Source: Gammaproteobacteria bacterium
GTDB taxonomy: Bacteria; Pseudomonadota; Gammaproteobacteria; Steroidobacterales; Woeseiaceae
Assembly: GCA_009937445.1 (NCBI GenBank)
Contig: JAACFM010000016.1
Location: 1-64,000, forward strand
DNA: 64,000 nucleotides
Reading direction: 5' to 3'
Numbering within the stretch: position 1 is the stretch's first letter; the number at the start of each line of letters is the position of its first letter. The notes under the pieces were generated by a model. That model ran no database searches. It was not told the origin of the DNA and worked only from the letters and a program-made list of their open reading frames with translations. Shown here one piece after another: positions 14,743-63,007 of this stretch. The position numbers were made by a program, and so were the translations under genes.

Positions 14743-15099
14743 CTATTCTTTGTCAGTAAACTTGTGAAGAATCAGATAGGCAGCGCCGATGCAGAATGGA
14801 AATGCCGCGCCCGCCAGTGTTCCTCTCAACGCATCGGGTTCCGGAATAGCAAAACCGACCAACACAAGCGCTAACGCCAATGAAAGCCAGATGATGCCGT
14901 ATCGCAGATCCTTGTCTTTCGGTGTCCTCGGATGACCAAGACGGTCAATGACTTCGGGCGACAGCTCCTGTCCTTTATCCAGCGCCGCTCGAAAGGTTGA
15001 TTGCATTTCAACTCTCGCTTTGTATCGAAACCAGAACAGCGCAACGAATACGATCGTTATTCCACCGAACATTACAATCGGGATCATTTCTTCGGTCAT
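14743..15099 (-). CDS. DUF6249-like membrane protein
   Basis: 118 aa, three TM segments, SPEVIDRLGHPRTPKDKDLRYGIIWLSLALAL. Confidence 0.6.
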   Translation of the reverse strand: MTEEMIPIVMFGGITIVFVALFWFRYKARVEMQSTFRAALDKGQELSPEVIDRLGHPRTPKDKDLRYGIIWLSLALALVLVGFAIPEPDALRGTLAGAAFPFCIGAAYLILHKFTDKE

Positions 15100-15293
15100 T
15101 TTTCTTACTCCATAATAAATTCATGAGTTGCTTTCACTGGTCAGATGCTCAACAAAGTAGTTTTGGATGCAAGATTTTTAAGTATATGTTTTCATTGGCT
15201 ATTATTTCCATCTGGAGCACTCAACGTCAACCGATCTGCGGCCAGACCGTTACTTTTGGAACGCTGGTGCAGTTTGATTATAGGATGGAATAC

Positions 15294-16676
15294 ATGAGCA
15301 AGGGTGTTATTGCTGCTTCGCGATTCGGTCTCGGTGCCCGGCCCGACGACTTGAAGACCACCAAGCACAATCCCGAAGCATGGCTGCTGGACCAGATACA
15401 AGGCCCACCGCGATTGCACGACGAGATCCAGCGTCTCCCTGACTCTGCTGCCGTGCTGGTCGCGGTTCAAGATCTGCGCCGTCAGGAGCGGGAAGAAAAA
15501 AACAAGGATCCCGACGCGGCGAAGACCTATGGCCGTATTGTCCGCCGCCACTATACCGAGCAAACGAACGCACGCTATCGAGCCGCCGCCGAAACCGACC
15601 ACCCGTTTCACGAAAGACTTGTGCATTTCTGGTCGAATCATTTTGCGATTTCCGCAGACAAGCAACCCATACCGGCGATTGCGGGCCTGTATGAAAAGGA
15701 GGCTATTCGCCCAAACGTAAGCGGAAAGTTCATCGACCTGCTGCTCGCAGCCGAGAAGCACCCGGCAATGATTGTTTATCTGGACAATCAGCGTTCGGTC
15801 GGCCCGGCCTCGCCGCTGGGCAAGCGGGCAAATCGCAAAAGAAAGGATCGCGAAATCGGTCTGAACGAGAATTTGGCGCGTGAGATTCTCGAGCTGCACA
15901 CCCTTGGCGTCCACGGCGGCTACACGCAGCAGGACGTGACGACGCTCGCAAAAGTCATTACAGGCTGGTCGGTTGGCGGCACCAATGACCGCGGACAATT
16001 CGCTGCCGGCGTGCCTGGAACATTTGAATTCAGAGAAACAATACACGAGCCGGGCGCGCATAAAATCCTGGGCAAACGCTATGCCCAGGCGGGAATGAAA
16101 CAGGGTGAAGCGGTCCTCAGAGACCTCGCGTCCCACCCGTCGACGGCCCGGTTTATCTCGACCAAGCTGGCACGCCATTTCGTTGCCGACGATCCACCTG
16201 AGTCAATCATCGACAAACTGACAACGGTGTTTCTCCGGACTGGAGGCGACCTGGCGGCCTGTTACGAAGTACTGATCAAGTCCGAAGAAGCCTGGCTCAC
16301 GGTCTACAACAAGTACAAGACACCACATGATTTCGTCGTATCGACACTGCGAGCATTCAATCACAGTCCCGGTAATCCCCGCTTCATTACCGGTGCACTG
16401 GATCTGATGGGCCAGACTCCCTACCGACCAGGATCACCCGCAGGTTGGCCCGACACGGCAGCCCACTGGGGTGGTGCTGATGCGCTCTACAAACGCATCG
16501 AGTGGTCGAATACCGTTTCCCGCATTGTTGGGTCACGCGTCAATCCGGTCGATCTGGGTGACGCGATATTGGGTGACGCGTTCAACCCTGAAACACGCAA
16601 AGCCATATCCCGGGCAGACAGCCTGCAACAGGGCATGACCTTGTTTCTTGCATCACCGGACTTCCAGAGGAGATGA
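15294..16676 (+). CDS. DUF1800 domain-containing protein
   Basis: SRFGLGARPDDL…RLVHFWSNHFAIS…NENLAREILELHTLGVHGGYTQQDVTTLAKVITGW; ORF opens at 14997 but the N-terminus fits ATG 15294. Confidence 0.9.
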   Translation: MSKGVIAASRFGLGARPDDLKTTKHNPEAWLLDQIQGPPRLHDEIQRLPDSAAVLVAVQDLRRQEREEKNKDPDAAKTYGRIVRRHYTEQTNARYRAAAETDHPFHERLVHFWSNHFAISADKQPIPAIAGLYEKEAIRPNVSGKFIDLLLAAEKHPAMIVYLDNQRSVGPASPLGKRANRKRKDREIGLNENLAREILELHTLGVHGGYTQQDVTTLAKVITGWSVGGTNDRGQFAAGVPGTFEFRETIHEPGAHKILGKRYAQAGMKQGEAVLRDLASHPSTARFISTKLARHFVADDPPESIIDKLTTVFLRTGGDLAACYEVLIKSEEAWLTVYNKYKTPHDFVVSTLRAFNHSPGNPRFITGALDLMGQTPYRPGSPAGWPDTAAHWGGADALYKRIEWSNTVSRIVGSRVNPVDLGDAILGDAFNPETRKAISRADSLQQGMTLFLASPDFQRR

Positions 16677-17915: not shown

Positions 17916-18761
17916 ATGAAGATGTTCAATCGGTTTGCACAAACGCTGCGGGACCCGCGCTACTACCAGATAATCGTACTCAGTCTGCTGCTGATCTATG
18001 GCATCACTGCACTCGACTTCGGCATTCGGTGGCAAAACGCACTGGTCATTGTGCTGACTGCCCTCGGTATTCAATTTTTGGGCACGCACTATTCTCGCCT
18101 GCCTCGATTCGATCCGCTGAGTCCGCTGATTACATCACTGTCACTCACGTTGCTGTTGCGAACAGACGATGTGATGTTTGCCGCGCTGGCCGCGAGCCTC
18201 GCGATCGGCAGCAAATTTCTGATTCGGTTTCGCGATAAGCATATCTTCAATCCTGCCAATTTCGCGCTCGTCACATTGATGCTGCTAAGTGATCATACAT
18301 GGGTGTCTTCAGGGCAATGGGGCAGTGCCGCTATCGGAGCTTTCGTCCTGGCATGCCTCGGCTTCCTTGTGCTTACTCGCGCCCGGCGCGCCGAAACGAC
18401 GATCGCGTTCATTGCCCTATACGGCGCGATGCTCTTTGCTCGGGCGATTTGGCTTGATGACCCCTTGAGTATTCCTCTGCACCAGGTGCAAAACGGTGCG
18501 TTGTTGATATTCGCTTTCTTCATGATCTCCGACCCGAAAACGACGCCCAACACAGCGGGCGGACGCATCCTGTTTGCGGCGCTGGTTGCGAGCGTCGCCT
18601 ACACCATTCAATTCATCTATTACCAACCTAACGGTCCAATCCTTGCGCTTATCATCTCTGCACCTTTGGTGCCTTTGATTGACGCTCTGCTTGAGGGCCG
18701 AATCTACCGGTGGGAACAACCGGCTGAGCAAAAACTCAGCCGCATCAAAGGAGTGTTCTAA
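17916..18761 (+). CDS. RnfD/NqrB-like membrane protein (orphan)
   Basis: Polytopic; KHIFNPANFALVTLMLLSDHTWVSSGQWG; FFMISDPKTTPNTAGGRILFA resembles the RnfD flavinylation-site region. Confidence 0.75.
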   Translation: MKMFNRFAQTLRDPRYYQIIVLSLLLIYGITALDFGIRWQNALVIVLTALGIQFLGTHYSRLPRFDPLSPLITSLSLTLLLRTDDVMFAALAASLAIGSKFLIRFRDKHIFNPANFALVTLMLLSDHTWVSSGQWGSAAIGAFVLACLGFLVLTRARRAETTIAFIALYGAMLFARAIWLDDPLSIPLHQVQNGALLIFAFFMISDPKTTPNTAGGRILFAALVASVAYTIQFIYYQPNGPILALIISAPLVPLIDALLEGRIYRWEQPAEQKLSRIKGVF

Positions 18762-20095
18762 TGCGAATTATCGCAACTTTACTTGCGGCGGCATTGACCG
18801 TCATAGTCACCACAACGGCTCAGGCATTTTGCGGCTTTTATGTTGCGCGAGCTGACACCAGTCTTTTCAACAAGGCATCGCAGGTCGTGCTGGTTCGCGA
18901 TGACGACCGGACGGTGATTACGATGGCCAATGATTTCGAGGGCGATGTCAAAGACTTTGCCGTGGTAATCCCGGTACCAACAAAGATCGAACGCGAGCAA
19001 ATCAATGTCGGTGACCGTGCGATCGTGCAGCATCTGGACGCCTATACGGCACCGCGTCTCGTCGAGTACCACGACCCTGATCCTTGCATGCGCCATGACC
19101 GCTACAAGATGTCGGCCGATAATGCCTTTCCAGAGGCCGCGATTTTGGAGAAATCCAGGGAATCAGCGCGCTCGCTTGGTGTGGTTATCGAAGCGAGCTA
19201 TACGGTTGGTGAGTACGATATTTTGATTCTGTCCGCAGAAGACAGTGGCGGCCTGATCGCGTGGTTGAAGAAAAACGAGTATCGACTGCCACACGGTGCC
19301 GAAAAAGTTGTCGACAGCTATCTGAAACAGGACATGCGGTTCTTTGTCGCCAAGGTCAATATTGAGGCGCAATCGAAGCTCGGCTACCAGTACCTGCGTC
19401 CACTGCAAGTGGCTTATGAAAGCAACAGGTTCATGCTGCCGATTCGGCTTGGCACGCTCAATGCCAAAGGCAAACAGGAATTGTATGTTTACGCGCTGAC
19501 CCGCAGCGGCCGGGTCGAGACCACTAACTATCGTACCGTTAAGATGCCCAGCGACGTGGATGTACCTGAGTTTGTGCAGGGCGAGTTTGCCGAGTTCTAC
19601 CGCGACATGTTTTCGCAGCAGGTTGTCGCAGAGAATGAGCGAGCCGTTTTCCTCGAATACGCCTGGGACATGAACTGGTGCGACCCGTGCGCCGCAGACC
19701 CATTGAGCCAGCAGGAATTGCGGAGCCTCGGCGTCTTCTGGGTTGGCGGCAAGGGCGCCAGCAAGATCGCTCCGATGCCAGCGCAAGACGTATTCGTTAC
19801 GCGCCTGCATGTTCGCTACGACAATGAACACTTTCCCGAAGATTTGATGTTCCAGGAAACCGGCGATCGCCAGAATTATCAGGGCCGCTATGTCATCCGT
19901 CGCCCCTGGAAAGGCGAAGCATCCTGCGATATCAGTGACTACCAGGCCGACGTACGTAAACGTCAGGAGCGAGAAGCACAGCAACTGGCCAACCTGACCG
20001 GCTGGAGTATCGAAGACATTCGCAAGAAAATCCCGTTCCCTGACGGCACAAACGGACCGGACGACGAGCCTTGGTGGAAGCGAATCTGGAGCTAA
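18761..20095 (+). CDS. DUF2330 domain-containing protein
   Basis: Signal peptide, CGFYVARADTSLFNKASQVVLVRDDDRTVITMANDFEGDVKDFAVVIPVPT; 1-bp overlap with RnfD-like gene. Confidence 0.88.
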   Translation: MRIIATLLAAALTVIVTTTAQAFCGFYVARADTSLFNKASQVVLVRDDDRTVITMANDFEGDVKDFAVVIPVPTKIEREQINVGDRAIVQHLDAYTAPRLVEYHDPDPCMRHDRYKMSADNAFPEAAILEKSRESARSLGVVIEASYTVGEYDILILSAEDSGGLIAWLKKNEYRLPHGAEKVVDSYLKQDMRFFVAKVNIEAQSKLGYQYLRPLQVAYESNRFMLPIRLGTLNAKGKQELYVYALTRSGRVETTNYRTVKMPSDVDVPEFVQGEFAEFYRDMFSQQVVAENERAVFLEYAWDMNWCDPCAADPLSQQELRSLGVFWVGGKGASKIAPMPAQDVFVTRLHVRYDNEHFPEDLMFQETGDRQNYQGRYVIRRPWKGEASCDISDYQADVRKRQEREAQQLANLTGWSIEDIRKKIPFPDGTNGPDDEPWWKRIWS

Positions 20096-55774: not shown

Positions 55775-57259
55775 ATGAATCAACCCAAACAAAAACAATC
55801 CATCGGAATCAGCGGACTTGCGGCATACATACCGCCGTACCGCGTATGGTTGGAGGATTGGTGCGACTGGACAGACAATCAGTGGCCCAAGATCCGCGAG
55901 GTTGTTGGGCGCAGCTTCCGCGTTCGTGGCCCAAATCATAGCGTTTACACCATGGCGGCCAATGCCGTCCTACGCCTGATCGACCAGTACGACGTGGACC
56001 CGACCCGGGTCAAATTTCTTGGCCTTGGCACGGAATCCAGCACCGACAATTCGGCCGGCGCAATCATTGTCAAAGGCATGGTGGACCAGGCACTGGAGGC
56101 GCGCGGCAAGTCGCCGATATCGCGCAGCTGTGAGGTTCCCGAGTTCAAACATGCCTGCCTTGGCGGCGTATACGGCATGAAGGGTGCAATTCGTCACCTG
56201 GCGCTTGATGGTGCCGGGAGTCAGGCTATCGTCGTTTGCGCCGATATTGCCGAATACGCGCGCGGCAGTTCGGGTGAGCCCACCCAGGGTGCCGGCGCGG
56301 TGGCAATGCTGCTTGAGGAAGATCCTCAGCTCGCCATCGTCGACCTGATTGGATCAGGTTCCGCCTCGGACTACCGAATTATGGACTTTCGCAAACCGAT
56401 GATGCGGTTTTGCGGGCAGGATCGGTCAGAATCTCATCAGGTTCAGGATTTTCCCGTTTTCAACGGCAAGTACTCTACAACCTGCTACATCGACGAGACC
56501 TTGCATGCGCTGAACGACATGTACGAAAAGCGCGGCCTCAATGCGATGGAGCATTTGCGCTCGCTGCGCACACTGTTTCTGCATCGACCCTACCGTCGAA
56601 TGCCCGAAACCGGTTGGGCTGTTTCTTATTTGTTCGCACTGGGGCAAGGCACGGCCGAAGATCGTGCTGAACTGGCGTCTTATTGCTATGAGGCGGGCGT
56701 TGACATCGATGCACTTCTGGCGGAAATGATCAGCAAACCCGATGTAACGAGTCTGGCAGAGCCGGAACGACTGCAATTTGAAGCCTATCCAATGGCAATG
56801 GCCGTCCTGCGTGCCTTCCGCGCCTCGCGCCGTTACTGTCATGAAATTCTCGACAAACTGCGGCTTGGCAGCGACACCATGCTCGACCTCGGCAATCTCT
56901 ATACCGCCGCGTTGCCCGCCTGGATGGCCGCCGGTTTCGAGCAGGCACTGGATGAAGATTCGCTGTTGGTTGGAGAGGAAGTGCTGACCCTGGGATACGG
57001 GAGTGGCGATGCAGCTGAAGTCATACCCTTCTTCATGGCCGAAAACTGGCGCGAAGCTGCAGCAAAAATTCGCTTCGCCGGCGCGATGGAACTGACACTG
57101 GATCTTGATCGTTCTCAGTACGAGGCCTTACATGACGGCCACCAGGTTCAGGGCTTGGATTACATCGCCAGAAACGAATTCATCATTGATCGCGTCGGCA
57201 CGACCGACGACCGTCATTTTTCCGACCTCGGAATTGAGTACTACCGCTACATCGCGTAA
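55775..57259 (+). CDS. Hydroxymethylglutaryl-CoA synthase family protein
   Basis: 494 aa thiolase fold; IGISGLAAYIPPYRV; GTESSTDNSAGAIIVKGMV; catalytic-Cys-like EFKHACLGGVYGMKGA; FLHRPYRRMPETGW. Confidence 0.88.
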   Translation: MNQPKQKQSIGISGLAAYIPPYRVWLEDWCDWTDNQWPKIREVVGRSFRVRGPNHSVYTMAANAVLRLIDQYDVDPTRVKFLGLGTESSTDNSAGAIIVKGMVDQALEARGKSPISRSCEVPEFKHACLGGVYGMKGAIRHLALDGAGSQAIVVCADIAEYARGSSGEPTQGAGAVAMLLEEDPQLAIVDLIGSGSASDYRIMDFRKPMMRFCGQDRSESHQVQDFPVFNGKYSTTCYIDETLHALNDMYEKRGLNAMEHLRSLRTLFLHRPYRRMPETGWAVSYLFALGQGTAEDRAELASYCYEAGVDIDALLAEMISKPDVTSLAEPERLQFEAYPMAMAVLRAFRASRRYCHEILDKLRLGSDTMLDLGNLYTAALPAWMAAGFEQALDEDSLLVGEEVLTLGYGSGDAAEVIPFFMAENWREAAAKIRFAGAMELTLDLDRSQYEALHDGHQVQGLDYIARNEFIIDRVGTTDDRHFSDLGIEYYRYIA

Positions 57260-57816
57260 CGGGCCAGCCGCTCTCCATAACTTTCTTTCAACGCTTGCCA
57301 TTCCTGCATAAACCAGGGTGTAAATCGCTGTGGCTGAGTTGCAAGCTCTTCGTCCATATTGCTCACTGAGACAAAACGTACAGCGGCAATCTCGCTCTCG
57401 TTCGGCTGAATGGCGCCGTTGATCCTGCCCAGATAAACGTGGCAAAGCTCGTTCTCGGAACCCAGTTCATTGAATTCGGCTTGATAGCAAAATTGATAGA
57501 CGTACTCCAGATCAGCGGCCGTATTGAGCTCATCATGCAGCCGCCGCATGGTTGCGATCGATAGCGTCTCGCCACGCCTCGGATGGCTGCAGCAACTGTT
57601 CGACCAGTATCCCGGCCAGAGACGTTTCTCGGCACTTCGTTGCTGCAACAACAACTCGCCTTTGTCGTTGAACAAAAATAATGAAAAGGCACGGTGCAGC
57701 ACGCCGGGACCGTCGTGGCAATCGGCTTTTGACCGATAGCCTACTTCGTTGTCCTCACTGTCGACGAGAATGAGTTCCTCACTCTCGGACGACACAGCAC
57801 GATGAAGATCACTCAA
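57247..57816 (-). CDS. idi: Isopentenyl-diphosphate delta-isomerase, type 1
   Basis: Nudix-like LHRAFSLFLFNDKGELLLQQRSAEKRLWPGYWSNSCCSHPRRGE. Confidence 0.95.
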   Translation of the reverse strand: MSDLHRAVSSESEELILVDSEDNEVGYRSKADCHDGPGVLHRAFSLFLFNDKGELLLQQRSAEKRLWPGYWSNSCCSHPRRGETLSIATMRRLHDELNTAADLEYVYQFCYQAEFNELGSENELCHVYLGRINGAIQPNESEIAAVRFVSVSNMDEELATQPQRFTPWFMQEWQALKESYGERLARYAM

Positions 57817-57821
57817 TCGTC

Positions 57822-60041
57822 TTATCCTTCAAGGTTTGTGGATTGCAGGGTTTTGTAGCCTGCCTGATGCAGGGCGGAACGTACCACATCCTCTGTACCC
57901 GGACACAAAGCCACAATCGATCCGCCGCCGCCGGCCCCCGTCAGCTTCGCGCCCACCGCGCCTCTCTGTCGGGCAATGGAAACCATATTTTCAAGATCGG
58001 GGGTGGAGACCTCTATCGCGTTCAACAGACCATGGCAGAGATTCATTAACGCTCCCAGTTCGCTGTATTGCTTTGAAGTCAACGCCTTCGCGCCCGCTTT
58101 GCTGATGTCGTCAATCTGATCAAAGATTGCGTTGTAGCGAGACGGATTCTGATCGAACCGTGATCTGACGCCTGCAACCTGTTCCTGTGTCGGCCCCGCC
58201 GAACGGCTGAAGGCAACGACCAGCGGCGGTACTTCATCCAGCACCAACGTCTCGACTGTCAGAGCACCGGTATTTCGAAACAGCATCGGGGTCCCATAGC
58301 AGGACAAGGTATTGTCGACTCCGGATGGTGTTCCGTGGGCAAGCTTTTCGCAGTCGAATGCGATCTCGTTGACGTCAGTGTCATCAATTTTGATCGCCGC
58401 GCACTTCGCAACAGCGCGAATAATCGCGACCGCGATAGCGGCAGACGACCCGAGGCCCATGCCACGTGGCAGGCACGAAGAAACGTTAATCGCAAAGCTC
58501 GCGTGTCCAACATCGAGCCTTTCAAGAATCAGATTGATCGCAGCATCGATGCCGTCGCTGCTATCGGGCCTGATGACCGATCGAAAGCCCCAGTCACGCA
58601 CGGTCAGCGTCGTCTCTTTATCGCTGCGGACAACTGCTGCTCGTACGGCATCGGGTATCGGCACTGCGAGCACGTGGCGACCGTACACAGCGGCGTGTTC
58701 TCCGAGCAGAATAATCTTCCCTGCGGCAGTCGCTTCGGCCGCATCAGTTGGCGTTTCGCTACTGGTTAAACCATCGAGAATTTCCCTGGCTTTCCAGTTT
58801 TTGATCTCGCCGCTTGCGACCAGTTTGTCGACAACCTCATCCAGTTGCTCGTCCGGTGTACCCGCAGACGTCGCAACACTGCGCGCGTGCAGTCGCATGT
58901 GCCCTTTCTGGATGCCACTGGTTGCGAGCGCTCGCAATGCCGCAAAATTCTGTGCAAGACCCACCGCCGCCATCAATTCGGTCAGGTGTGCTGCAGACTG
59001 TGTGCCTGCAATTGCCAGCCCGAGCGCCGCTGCGGGATTCGACAATACGGTGCCGCCAACGATGCCGGGTTTGAGCGGCACCTTGATCTGGCCGATCAAA
59101 TCGCCGTTCGCGCCAACCGACCACTCGGTCAATGATGAGTACTGACCGCTCCTCGCGGCATACGCATGTGCGCCCGCTTCAATCGCCCGCCAGTCATTAC
59201 CGGTCGCGATAGCGAGCGCGTCGATGCCATTCATCACGCCCTTGTTGTGCGTTGCGGCTCGATACGGGTCAACGACCGCGATTTCGCTGGCCGTCACAAT
59301 CCGGTCCCGAACCGCCGGGCCGTCCATTGCATCGCTTGCCAGACTGTCCACGCTGTAACGAACCGTCGCCGAACAAACAGAACGGTCCACGAGATTCGTC
59401 AGTATTCTTAACGCGATTTCCCCACTGCAGATTTCAGCAATCCGCGGCGCTATTGATTCACACAGGGTATTGACCAGGTTGGCCCCCATCGCGTCACAGG
59501 TATCAACCAGAACATGTACGGCGACAACCGGGCTGCCATCCTGCAGTCGCAGGCTGCGAAATTCCAACTCACGAACGCCACCGCCGCGCGTCTGCAAACG
59601 AGGGTGTACGGCATCGGCGAGGGCGCGTAATTCATCAGACGAATCCTTCAGGCGAGTGATGGCCTCGTTGGTGTCCGTAATGCCAACCACATGAATTTGC
59701 CCCGCCAGCAAGGACTCTTCGAGGCTCGCTGTAAACCCGCCCGTGCCTCTGGACAAGGCCGCAGCATTGCTTAACGCGGCAACAATGGACGGCTCTTCCA
59801 CCACCAGGGGGACGATGTGCTCACGCTGGTTCACAATAAAATTGGGCGCGATGGCCAGCGGCAGCCCGAATACGCCGACGACGTTTTCGATCATCTTGTC
59901 TGCCGCAATGGCAGAAATTGTCTGGCGACCAGCCTGTAGATCGTGAGCGGCATTTGCTGTCAGCCACCCCAGCCTCTCAAGTTCAGCAATGCGTTCTGGC
60001 ACGCTGAGCTTGTAAAGACCTGCAATGCGCGAGTCGCTCAT
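57822..60041 (-). CDS. Fusion: class II hydroxymethylglutaryl-CoA reductase (N-term) + mevalonate kinase (C-term)
   Basis: Single 740-aa frame from ATG 60041. HMGR: LSVPERIAELERLGWL…, ENVVGVFGLPLAIAPNFIVN. MK: AAGKIILLGEHAAVYGRHVLAVPI, LPRGMGLGSSAAIAVAI, GTPSGVDNTLSCYG, GAKLTGAGGGGSIVAL. Junction near 58740-58800. Confidence 0.93.
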   Translation of the reverse strand: MSDSRIAGLYKLSVPERIAELERLGWLTANAAHDLQAGRQTISAIAADKMIENVVGVFGLPLAIAPNFIVNQREHIVPLVVEEPSIVAALSNAAALSRGTGGFTASLEESLLAGQIHVVGITDTNEAITRLKDSSDELRALADAVHPRLQTRGGGVRELEFRSLRLQDGSPVVAVHVLVDTCDAMGANLVNTLCESIAPRIAEICSGEIALRILTNLVDRSVCSATVRYSVDSLASDAMDGPAVRDRIVTASEIAVVDPYRAATHNKGVMNGIDALAIATGNDWRAIEAGAHAYAARSGQYSSLTEWSVGANGDLIGQIKVPLKPGIVGGTVLSNPAAALGLAIAGTQSAAHLTELMAAVGLAQNFAALRALATSGIQKGHMRLHARSVATSAGTPDEQLDEVVDKLVASGEIKNWKAREILDGLTSSETPTDAAEATAAGKIILLGEHAAVYGRHVLAVPIPDAVRAAVVRSDKETTLTVRDWGFRSVIRPDSSDGIDAAINLILERLDVGHASFAINVSSCLPRGMGLGSSAAIAVAIIRAVAKCAAIKIDDTDVNEIAFDCEKLAHGTPSGVDNTLSCYGTPMLFRNTGALTVETLVLDEVPPLVVAFSRSAGPTQEQVAGVRSRFDQNPSRYNAIFDQIDDISKAGAKALTSKQYSELGALMNLCHGLLNAIEVSTPDLENMVSIARQRGAVGAKLTGAGGGGSIVALCPGTEDVVRSALHQAGYKTLQSTNLEG

Positions 60042-61039
60042 GTTGTCCCCGTCTCCGTTTCCTCTGTGGTGACACCAGCCAAAGTCAGCCTGCATTCAAG
60101 CACGGAGAATTTCGCCGCCAGAGCACTGGCAAAGGCATTGACGGCGGCCTCATCCGTTCCCATTAAAATACCCACATCGCCTCCGCCTGCGCCGCAGGGT
60201 TTGTAGGTCAGGTGCGCAGCATTCGCTGCTCGCCAAAGTTCATCGTGGCCAGCATCGAATATGCCGAGGTCATGGTCAACACTGAACTGGCGCAATTGCT
60301 CGCTGTAGTCGCGATAATTCTTGATGATCTGGTCCGCATCGCCGCCATGCCAGGCGCTGGCCATATCTTCAGAAGCACTGACAAGCCGCACTCGCGACGG
60401 CTTGCTGATTCCCGCGTTGAGTTTTGCCAGCTTGCCTGCCGTACTCGCCGGAACGCCGGTCCAAATCAGGCGATACGACAAACCATCGGGCCAGTTCAAT
60501 GGTGTCACCGACGCGCCTTCCATTCGATACTCGATCAGTCCGCCAGTCAAACTGCAGGCAATGTCAACGCCGCTTCCGGCGCCTCTCTGCAGATCTCTGT
60601 GCGCACGTTGCGCTACAGCCATTATGGACGCGGCTTCAGTCGAGCCCTTGACGGCCGCGCACAACGCCACCGTCAGTGCCGCGCTCGAACCGATGCCGAT
60701 TTTTCGGCGACGATCTTTATCATTGAACTCTGACGTATCCAGCTCGATGCTCCGAGCGCCGCCCGGTAACGCGTTGGCAGCCCGCCAGACCGAGCCCACA
60801 ATCCTGAAAACCGCCTGACCGTTGAGCCACCGTAGATTCCCGTTGACCGATTCGAAACGACCCGTTTTGTCGGTAAACCCTGGCGCGCGGACCTGAGTAA
60901 CTGCACCGTCCGCAGCGGCGAGAGTCACTCGAGCGCGTCGGTCCACCGCCATGCAAATCGCCGGCGCACCGTCGAGTACTGCGTACTCACCAGAGAGCAC
61001 CACCTTTCCAGGTGCGCTCGCTACAACAACTTTGGTCAC
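60038..61039 (-). CDS. GHMP kinase, probable phosphomevalonate kinase
   Basis: VVVASAPGKVVLSGEYAVLDGAPAICMAVDRRARV; KIGIGSSAALTVALCAAV; GAGSGVDIACSLTGG; PCGAGGGDVGI; position between MvaD and HMGR-MK. Confidence 0.82.
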   Translation of the reverse strand: MTKVVVASAPGKVVLSGEYAVLDGAPAICMAVDRRARVTLAAADGAVTQVRAPGFTDKTGRFESVNGNLRWLNGQAVFRIVGSVWRAANALPGGARSIELDTSEFNDKDRRRKIGIGSSAALTVALCAAVKGSTEAASIMAVAQRAHRDLQRGAGSGVDIACSLTGGLIEYRMEGASVTPLNWPDGLSYRLIWTGVPASTAGKLAKLNAGISKPSRVRLVSASEDMASAWHGGDADQIIKNYRDYSEQLRQFSVDHDLGIFDAGHDELWRAANAAHLTYKPCGAGGGDVGILMGTDEAAVNAFASALAAKFSVLECRLTLAGVTTEETETGTT

Positions 61040-61998
61040 AGACTTTCGACCAATCGGGCCGCAGACCCCAGGCCAGTCGTCATGATTTCCTGCACGCCGG
61101 ACGTCTCTGCCAGTGCCTGGCTCACAGCGTCGACATCGGCCGGCAAACAGACCGCTTTTACCTGCGGACCGGCATCAATCGTAAAGAACACCTGATGCCC
61201 CTCTCCCTGCAATCGCCGCACTGTCTGCAGGCATCTCATGGTCGCCGCATTCCAAAAGACCATCGGAGGACGAGAGGCCCACATAACCGAATGCATTTTC
61301 AGACAGTTGTGTTCGGCTATCGTCGCAAGCTGGGCGAAGTCTCGCCGATCTATCGCTGCGCGCGCCACCTCCAGATCATATTCCTGCTGCGCAACCCAGT
61401 TATCGTAGAATGGCGATGTCTCTCGCGAAATTTCCATCGCTTCTGTCGAACCGGTGGCCTTGGGCCCTGTTTGGGTGATCGCGACAACGACCTGCAGTGG
61501 CCATGAATCAACGTCGCACAGTGGCGTCAACGTGATGTTGTCATCCGCATTCTTGAGCTCGACAAACCCACCATACAGCGAGCGAGCTGCTGATCCCGAC
61601 GAGGCCCCGGCAAGCCGCGCAAGATCTTGCGTGCCAAGCGACAAATTAGCGGCGCCCGCGGCGGCAACCGTGGTTGCGGCAAATGCTGAGGCCGACGATG
61701 CGAGACCGGCGGCGATGGGAAAGTTGCTGTGACTTTGCATGCTGGCGCGCAAACGGCTTTGACCCAGGACCTTATCGAGGCAGGCGCTCATGCGCGGCAA
61801 CATGGCCTGATTCTCGTCTCCATTTACGAGCAGGATGTCATCGGACAATCCGTCCCGTAGTTCAACGCTGACCTTTGTCTGGAGATCACTCAAGGTAATG
61901 GAGATTGATCCGACAGCCGGTAAATTTCTGTCGATATCTCGTTTGCCCCAGTATTTGATCAGCGCAATATTCGGCTGTGCAATTGCCGTCGCCTGCAT
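61036..61998 (-). CDS. mvaD: Diphosphomevalonate decarboxylase
   Basis: AIAQPNIALIKYWGKRDIDRNLPAVGSISITL; NFPIAAGLASSASAFAAT; ASSGSAARSLYGGFVELKN; ATG 61998 preferred. Confidence 0.94.
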   Translation of the reverse strand: MQATAIAQPNIALIKYWGKRDIDRNLPAVGSISITLSDLQTKVSVELRDGLSDDILLVNGDENQAMLPRMSACLDKVLGQSRLRASMQSHSNFPIAAGLASSASAFAATTVAAAGAANLSLGTQDLARLAGASSGSAARSLYGGFVELKNADDNITLTPLCDVDSWPLQVVVAITQTGPKATGSTEAMEISRETSPFYDNWVAQQEYDLEVARAAIDRRDFAQLATIAEHNCLKMHSVMWASRPPMVFWNAATMRCLQTVRRLQGEGHQVFFTIDAGPQVKAVCLPADVDAVSQALAETSGVQEIMTTGLGSAARLVESL

Positions 61999-62038
61999 GG
62001 ACTTGAATCCTGATTTTCCGAGCCGTATAGGGACGCGA

Positions 62039-62044
62039 ATTATA
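62039..62044 (-). promoter_or_regulatory. Predicted -10 (TATAAT) for the mevalonate operon
   Basis: TATAAT on the minus strand 41 bp upstream of the mvaD ATG; -35 not clear. Confidence 0.4.
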
Positions 62045-62104
62045 GCCCAGTGCGAGCCGCGCACAGTGCCTGATTTCGGTGTACGCTACACGGCCCGACA
62101 AAGA

Positions 62105-63007
62105 GTGAAAGCCGCTTTGCCCGAAAACTTCAAAGCCCGCATCAGCACCTATACCGACCGCGTTAATCTGGGTCTGGACAGGACCTTACCGCCAACGACG
62201 ACGCGGCCGCATCGCCTGCACGATGCGATGCGATACTCGGTGCTCAACGGTGGTAAGCGGGTCCGACCGCTGCTCGTCTATGCAGCGGGAGAATGCCTGA
62301 ATGTCGATACTCCACTGCTCGACGCGCCGGCCATCGCCATTGAGCTGATTCATGCGTTTTCGCTGGTTCACGACGACCTGCCGGCAATGGATAATGACGA
62401 TTTGAGACGGGGCAAGCCGACCGTCCACAAACAATACGACGAAGCCACGGCGATTCTCGCAGCAGATGCACTGCAACCGCTCGCGTTCGCGGCACTGTCC
62501 AGGATCGAAAACGTGCCGGCTGATGCGGTCATCGGACTTGTCCAACTCATCGCCGATGCCTGCGGCTCGATCGGCATGACCGGCGGGCAGTCCATCGACC
62601 TCTCCGCAGAGGGCCAGTCCCTGTCGAAACAGGAACTTGAGCACATGTACGCACTGAAGACCGGTGCCTTGATTCATGCTGCGATTGTCTCAGCGTGTCT
62701 GCTCAAAGTGGGTTTGCCGCCCGCAGATGCAGAGGCCCTCGATCGATTCGGTCGAGACATCGGCATCGCGTTTCAGATCAAAGACGACATCCTCGACGTC
62801 GAAGGCGATACCGAGGTCATCGGCAAGCCGGCAGGATCGGATGAGGCATTGAATAAGGCCACCTATCCGGCACTGTTTGGTATTGATGAGTCGCGAGCAC
62901 GTTGCGACGAACTTCTCGCCGGCGCACTCGGGAATCTCGAACGATTTGGCAGTTCGGCCAAGCCATTGGTTTGGCTCGCGCGCTATATCGTCGAGCGCGG
63001 CCAATAA
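62105..63007 (+). CDS. ispA: Polyprenyl synthetase, farnesyl diphosphate synthase type
   Basis: MRYSVLNGGKRVRPLLVYA; FARM ALVHDDLPAMDNDDLRRGKPT; SARM IKDDILDVEGD. GTG 62105 proposed; ORF opens at 61835 over mvaD antisense. Confidence 0.93.
   Translation: MKAALPENFKARISTYTDRVNLGLDRTLPPTTTRPHRLHDAMRYSVLNGGKRVRPLLVYAAGECLNVDTPLLDAPAIAIELIHAFSLVHDDLPAMDNDDLRRGKPTVHKQYDEATAILAADALQPLAFAALSRIENVPADAVIGLVQLIADACGSIGMTGGQSIDLSAEGQSLSKQELEHMYALKTGALIHAAIVSACLLKVGLPPADAEALDRFGRDIGIAFQIKDDILDVEGDTEVIGKPAGSDEALNKATYPALFGIDESRARCDELLAGALGNLERFGSSAKPLVWLARYIVERGQ

Follow-up and report, generated by a model that had tools for sequence, protein, structure and literature searches.

An in-frame HMG-CoA reductase-mevalonate kinase fusion in Woeseiaceae and other bacteria, predicted to be a single bifunctional biosynthetic enzyme

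The mevalonate pathway is classically controlled at HMG-CoA reductase (HMGR), and its classic target of feedback inhibition is mevalonate kinase (MVK). In a 64,000-nucleotide stretch of contig JAACFM010000016.1 (Woeseiaceae), here called the window, a reading made from the letters alone had proposed that one uninterrupted frame encodes both enzymes, and had left the direction and the cofactor preference of the reductase open. This locus thus raises the question whether the two are indeed one protein and, if so, whether this protein serves the synthesis or the degradation of mevalonate and in which way its two parts are joined.

The frame lies where the sequence-only reading had placed it and runs through 739 codons to its stop; the strand, which had not been given, is the minus strand, the plus strand across 57822-60041 being riddled with stops (Table 1). 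The full TIGR00532 model (class II HMGR) matches residues 1-386 with 372.5 bits, compared to a curated cut-off of 260, and the full TIGR00549 model (mevalonate kinase) matches residues 439-712 with 239.5 bits (model positions 1-276; cut-off 163). The domain search that had been suggested gave the expected outcome, Pfam HMG-CoA_red, GHMP_kinases_N and GHMP_kinases_C all being recognised on this one protein. Either a break between the domains or damage to one of them had been named as grounds for abandoning the proposal, and neither was found. The start codon of the fusion gene, an ATG at 60041, shares letters with the stop codon of the kinase gene upstream in an ATGA overlap. The fusion is the single HMGR and the single MVK found in the window's assembly, a 175-contig draft that is about 90% complete and from which a second copy of either could be missing.

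Table 1. Features of the fusion gene and its neighbourhood, in positions of the window
Feature	Position	Strand	Basis
HMGR-MVK fusion gene, 739 aa, ATG start	57822..60041	-	open frame; TIGR00532 and TIGR00549 above cut-off
Class II HMGR part, residues 1 to ~425	58767..60041	-	TIGR00532; alignment to solved class II HMGRs to ~425; Foldseek 1qax
Cofactor helix motif H146-P-R-L-Q-T-R152, NADPH-type His and Arg	59586..59606	-	alignments; motif rule in PMC13370337
HMGR C-terminal three-helix (flap) domain with catalytic His381, residues ~376-429	58755..58916	-	model helices; junction alignment; L050 model
Short variable linker, residues ~426-437, without in-frame start codon	58731..58766	-	alignment; model; start scan
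Mevalonate kinase (GHMP) part, residues ~438-739	57825..58730	-	TIGR00549; solved mevalonate kinases; Foldseek 6mde
PMK-like GHMP kinase gene, directly upstream of fusion	60038..61039	-	best NCBIfam TIGR01220, 97.7 bits, below cut-off 165.7; position conserved
Diphosphomevalonate decarboxylase (MVD) gene	61036..61998	-	TIGR01240, 236.9 bits, cut-off 171
Type 1 isopentenyl-diphosphate isomerase (IDI) gene, directly downstream of fusion	57247..57816	-	TIGR02150, 151.4 bits, cut-off 106
HMG-CoA synthase gene, divergent, opposite strand	55775..57259	+	Pfam HMG_CoA_synt_N and _C above cut-off; TIGR01835 below cut-off
Farnesyl-diphosphate synthase (FPPS) gene, divergent	61988..63007	+	NF045485, 331.5 bits, cut-off 275; homology begins near 62150

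As the assembly is a fragmented draft, and as some bacteria have HMGR and MVK as separate neighbouring genes, one could suspect that faulty assembly or a frameshift has merged two genes. The survey of how widespread the architecture is, as had been proposed, recovered 104 distinct loci with a fused frame, spread over many independent assemblies. Among these are the NZ_ isolate genomes of Cryobacterium aureum, C. levicorallinum, C. psychrotolerans and Endozoicomonas sp. G2_2. The conserved open frames refute such an artefact, to which we attach a negligible probability. Both domains score above cut-off in the fusions of C. aureum and Endozoicomonas sp. G2_2. Among 100 relatives of the source genome 82 carry the fusion, a few of them cut by contig ends, and an 83rd match (G083) has merely a weak kinase match. 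A class-wide sample of 387 gammaproteobacterial genomes contained it in nine, the window's own genome included, and in other families as well. Single-frame fusions make up 42 of the 80 named loci from GTDB genomes, with carriers in Woeseiaceae, Salinisphaera, Endozoicomonas sp. G2_2, three Cryobacterium strains and metagenome-assembled genomes (MAGs) of Calditrichota, Acidobacteriota and Planctomycetota, the taxon labels of the MAGs being those deposited. Matches in Virgibacillus and Myxococcus that were listed as adjacent were rejected as fusions, as each consists of two genes. None of the 61 plasmid records with a match covered 80% of the query.

Both halves keep all catalytic residues that were examined. 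On the reductase side, Glu83, Lys267, Asn271, Asp283 and His381 (P. mevalonii numbering) are kept in all 108 aligned fused rows, which include a few second records of genomes already counted among the 104 loci. In the kinase, the GHMP motifs Lys442, Ser533, Glu565 and Asp576 and the KLTG loop are invariant across 23 diverse fusions; their catalytic roles are those established for rat MVK. The AlphaFold model of the fusion protein has a mean pLDDT of 82.9 and a pTM of 0.53. Its HMGR part resembles P. mevalonii HMGR (1qax) with a Foldseek target TM of 0.87 and its kinase part the M. mazei mevalonate kinase (6mde) with a target TM of 0.89. The fusion shares with the P. mevalonii class II enzyme (1qax, TIGR00532) the whole fold and the Glu83/Lys267/Asp283/His381 numbering, at 45% identity by structure alignment. 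Conversely, P. mevalonii HMGR is a single-function protein with Asp146, whereas the fusion has His146 and Arg152 and a kinase following its C-terminal domain. With the mevalonate kinases (TIGR00549; 2x7i, 6mde) it shares a complete GHMP kinase with all motifs, but it is no free protein, its N-terminus being tied to HMGR.

Class II HMGRs are often regarded as NADH-linked and catabolic, and the direction of this one had been raised as a question. A degradative NADH-linked enzyme, in which HMGR would work catabolically, oxidising mevalonate to HMG-CoA with the kinase as an accessory, would agree with the word 'degradative' in the title of TIGR00532 and with the NAD-bound state of the nearest solved HMGRs, for example from P. 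mevalonii and Delftia. The cofactor helix speaks against it. According to the rule of Miller and Kung (quoted in PMC13370337), Dx(V/L)xxxL marks NADH use and (H/Y)xSxxxR marks NADPH use, and in a 2025 study of the Ruegeria pomeroyi HMGR, Asp154 was critical for NADH specificity (PMC12292504). Residue 146 of P. mevalonii HMGR is Asp and the aligned residue of the fusion is His; His occupies this first motif position in 107 of the 108 fusions and Arg the seventh (position 152) in 105. Asp154 of R. pomeroyi is taken here to be the equivalent of position 146. As His146 and Arg152 stand in place of the NADH-type Asp and Leu, the fusion HMGR is predicted to prefer NADPH; since position 3 is Arg, Asn or Lys instead of Ser in nearly all fusions, dual cofactor use is possible.

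The genomic setting points the same way, the gene being grouped with PMK-like, MVD, IDI and FPPS genes in what is a complete mevalonate cluster. Of the 104 distinct fused loci, 89 have PMK or MVD as the nearest identified upstream gene on the same strand, 90 have IDI as the nearest downstream gene and 77 have both. The names of the PMK-like kinase and the HMG-CoA synthase rest on position and weaker matches, both below NCBIfam cut-offs, and should be read as putative. The start Met of MVD at 61998 was picked by the usual N-terminus, its open frame beginning at 62064. Promoter and terminator scans of the cluster returned no more sites than shuffled sequence. At 494 aa the putative HMG-CoA synthase is long, and it is divergent, scoring well below the NCBIfam cut-offs for that enzyme; the PMK-like kinase shows the lowest conservation among the proteins of the cluster.

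Moreover, fusion and MEP pathway are mutually exclusive among the 100 relatives. DXR (PF02670) occurs in 16 and GcpE (PF04551) in 17 of them, none of which has the fusion; all 17 relatives with an MEP gene lack it, and all 82 fusion-bearing relatives lack both DXR and GcpE. These genomes are related and hence not independent trials, but the pattern of exclusion is complete. One relative (G026, 73% complete) carries neither the fusion nor the MEP markers, and in the window's own assembly (about 90% complete) DXR and GcpE were not found. Fusion-bearing relatives missing DXR and GcpE need the mevalonate route, so that the fusion is to be read as biosynthetic and not as degradative. Together with the NADPH-type helix this narrows the question of direction considerably and leaves a catabolic, NADH-linked role very improbable; 'degradative' is the name of the TIGR00532 model and not a property of the fusion gene. 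The exclusion marks a pathway replacement in a large gammaproteobacterial group (Woeseiaceae and relatives), and dozens of species that have lost the isoprenoid pathway usual in bacteria retain the fusion. Within family f4 both states occur, one genus having MEP alone and another the fusion alone (G063 versus G077 and G090), and the switch between MEP and mevalonate can be dated within it. Outside the order, the class-level genomes G141 and G847 and locus L083 carry the fusion with a full DXR match, and Cryobacterium genomes (L079, L085 and L091) combine it with split, weak DXR matches. In these, two isoprenoid routes may coexist, the fusion being an addition and not a replacement.

Family models, catalytic residues, predicted fold and conservation of the fusion all agree with the bifunctional reading first proposed, and we consider it very probable that the gene encodes a single biosynthetic enzyme in which HMGR, most likely using NADPH, and a GHMP kinase acting on mevalonate are tied one to one. 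The N-terminal class II HMGR would convert HMG-CoA to mevalonate, most likely with NADPH, and the C-terminal kinase would convert mevalonate and ATP to mevalonate-5-phosphate. The connection between the two parts would run through the mobile helical domain at the C-terminus of the reductase and a short, variable linker, a single chain would fix their ratio at 1:1, and coupling of the ATP-driven kinase step to the reductase step would pull flux forward. We infer the activity of each domain, the NADPH preference and the flux pull, and true substrate channelling is only a possibility. For isoprenoid engineering, such a gene would provide a ready module in one piece that probably depends on NADPH, and the natural fusion allows one to ask whether mevalonate is channelled when consecutive steps are joined.

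The joint itself differs in part from the earlier description. The stretch that had been quoted as linker corresponds to residues 420-439, and the first half of these forms the final helix of the C-terminal domain of HMGR, whose three helices span residues 377-392, 397-410 and 415-429 in the model of the window protein. The true linker measures about 10-12 residues in this protein, its residues 427-431 having a pLDDT below 50, and it differs widely in length and sequence among fusions. A separate internal start for the kinase is unlikely, as the 20 codons preceding the kinase motif of the window gene hold no in-frame ATG, GTG or TTG; across fusions, a start with a Shine-Dalgarno-like tetramer before this motif occurs in just 10 of 103.

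Whether the joint does more than hold the domains together is a separate matter. The HMGR C-terminal domain bears the catalytic histidine and must be positioned for catalysis (PMC13370337). As this domain is mobile and the kinase is joined to it, the kinase hangs on a moving part. Six genus-mates (L049, L050 and L131-L134) show a gap of about 30 residues shortly behind H385 in the junction alignment, so that the three-helix domain that is complete in the window protein is incomplete in them: two of the three helices are gone, catalytic His381 is kept and the kinase follows almost directly. The model of L050 accordingly has a helix at 377-385 alone, then a disordered stretch and then the kinase. 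L050 nevertheless reaches a full HMGR score of 384.5 bits, although TIGR00532 does not extend over the lost helices. In these flap-trimmed forms HMGR either can do without its last two helices or has the kinase standing in for them, and they allow a direct test of the role of the HMGR C-terminal domain. A bolder reading makes the kinase physically part of the HMGR catalytic cycle: it would be tethered to the closing C-terminal domain, replacing two of its helices in one subclade, with mevalonate handed over or turnover coupled to the state of the kinase. We regard this as rather unlikely, and we know of no such coupled enzyme in the mevalonate pathway. That the domains are merely co-translated, with fixed stoichiometry and neither coupling nor channelling between the active sites, seems somewhat probable to us. 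The wide variation of the linker fits it, as do the predicted domain orientation, which is not fixed (pTM 0.53), and the separate neighbouring genes as which HMGR and MVK function in Myxococcus and Virgibacillus; the persistence of the fusion in 104 distinct loci without clear re-splitting weighs slightly against it, and the shortening of the joint into the HMGR C-terminal domain in six genomes hints at closer contact. The domain orientation given by AlphaFold was rejected as usable evidence, pTM being 0.53-0.54 for the window protein and L050.

Returning to the very probable single bifunctional enzyme, its nearest precedent is MvaE of Enterococcus faecalis (acetoacetyl-CoA thiolase/HMGR, cited in PMC13370337), likewise a natural fusion of HMGR with a mevalonate-pathway step. 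MvaE fuses a non-adjacent step, before HMG-CoA synthase, whereas HMGR-MVK fuses the immediately following step, on the C-side of HMGR. In MvaE the thiolase lies on the N-side of HMGR; the window protein has no thiolase domain and its HMGR begins at residue 1. IspDF of the MEP pathway (PMC13001223) is also a natural bifunctional bacterial enzyme of isoprenoid-precursor synthesis, but belongs to the other pathway and joins non-consecutive steps, while those of HMGR-MVK are consecutive. IspDF fusions are named in a 2026 review of isoprenoid pathways in bacteria (PMC13001223), which has no mention of an HMGR-MVK fusion, and no description of such a fusion was found in the open-access literature searched, most subscription journals lying outside its scope. 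The architecture is apparently undescribed, its component enzymes being known. Myxococcus, Corallococcus, Virgibacillus and Oceanobacillus have HMGR and then MVK in the same order, but as two neighbouring genes. The unfused HMGR of the Myxococcus type shares His146 and Arg152 with the fusion; the unfused pairs precede MVD, whereas the fusion precedes IDI.

The joining of HMGR and MVK apparently happened a single time, and many bacteria without the MEP pathway now carry the product. The unfused rows of the HMGR-domain tree, with the sole exception of L093, make up one side of a branch with an SH-aLRT of 98. L093, which breaks the fused group, was rejected as a case of fusion loss because it runs into a contig end, and no clear case of re-splitting was seen in the 104 distinct loci. 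Given a root among the unfused rows, a position that the tree does not itself infer, this topology is compatible with one fusion event followed by horizontal spread. The pairwise identities of the two domains correlate across 71 fusions (r=0.89), and HMGR and MVK domains appear to have diverged together. The MVK-domain tree is noisy, with one fused row on a long branch with Myxococcota kinases, and speaks neither for nor against one origin. Elsewhere in the window, genes for a DUF1800 protein (14997-16676, plus strand, 559 aa) and a DUF2330 protein (18761-20095, plus strand, 444 aa) lie a few kb apart.
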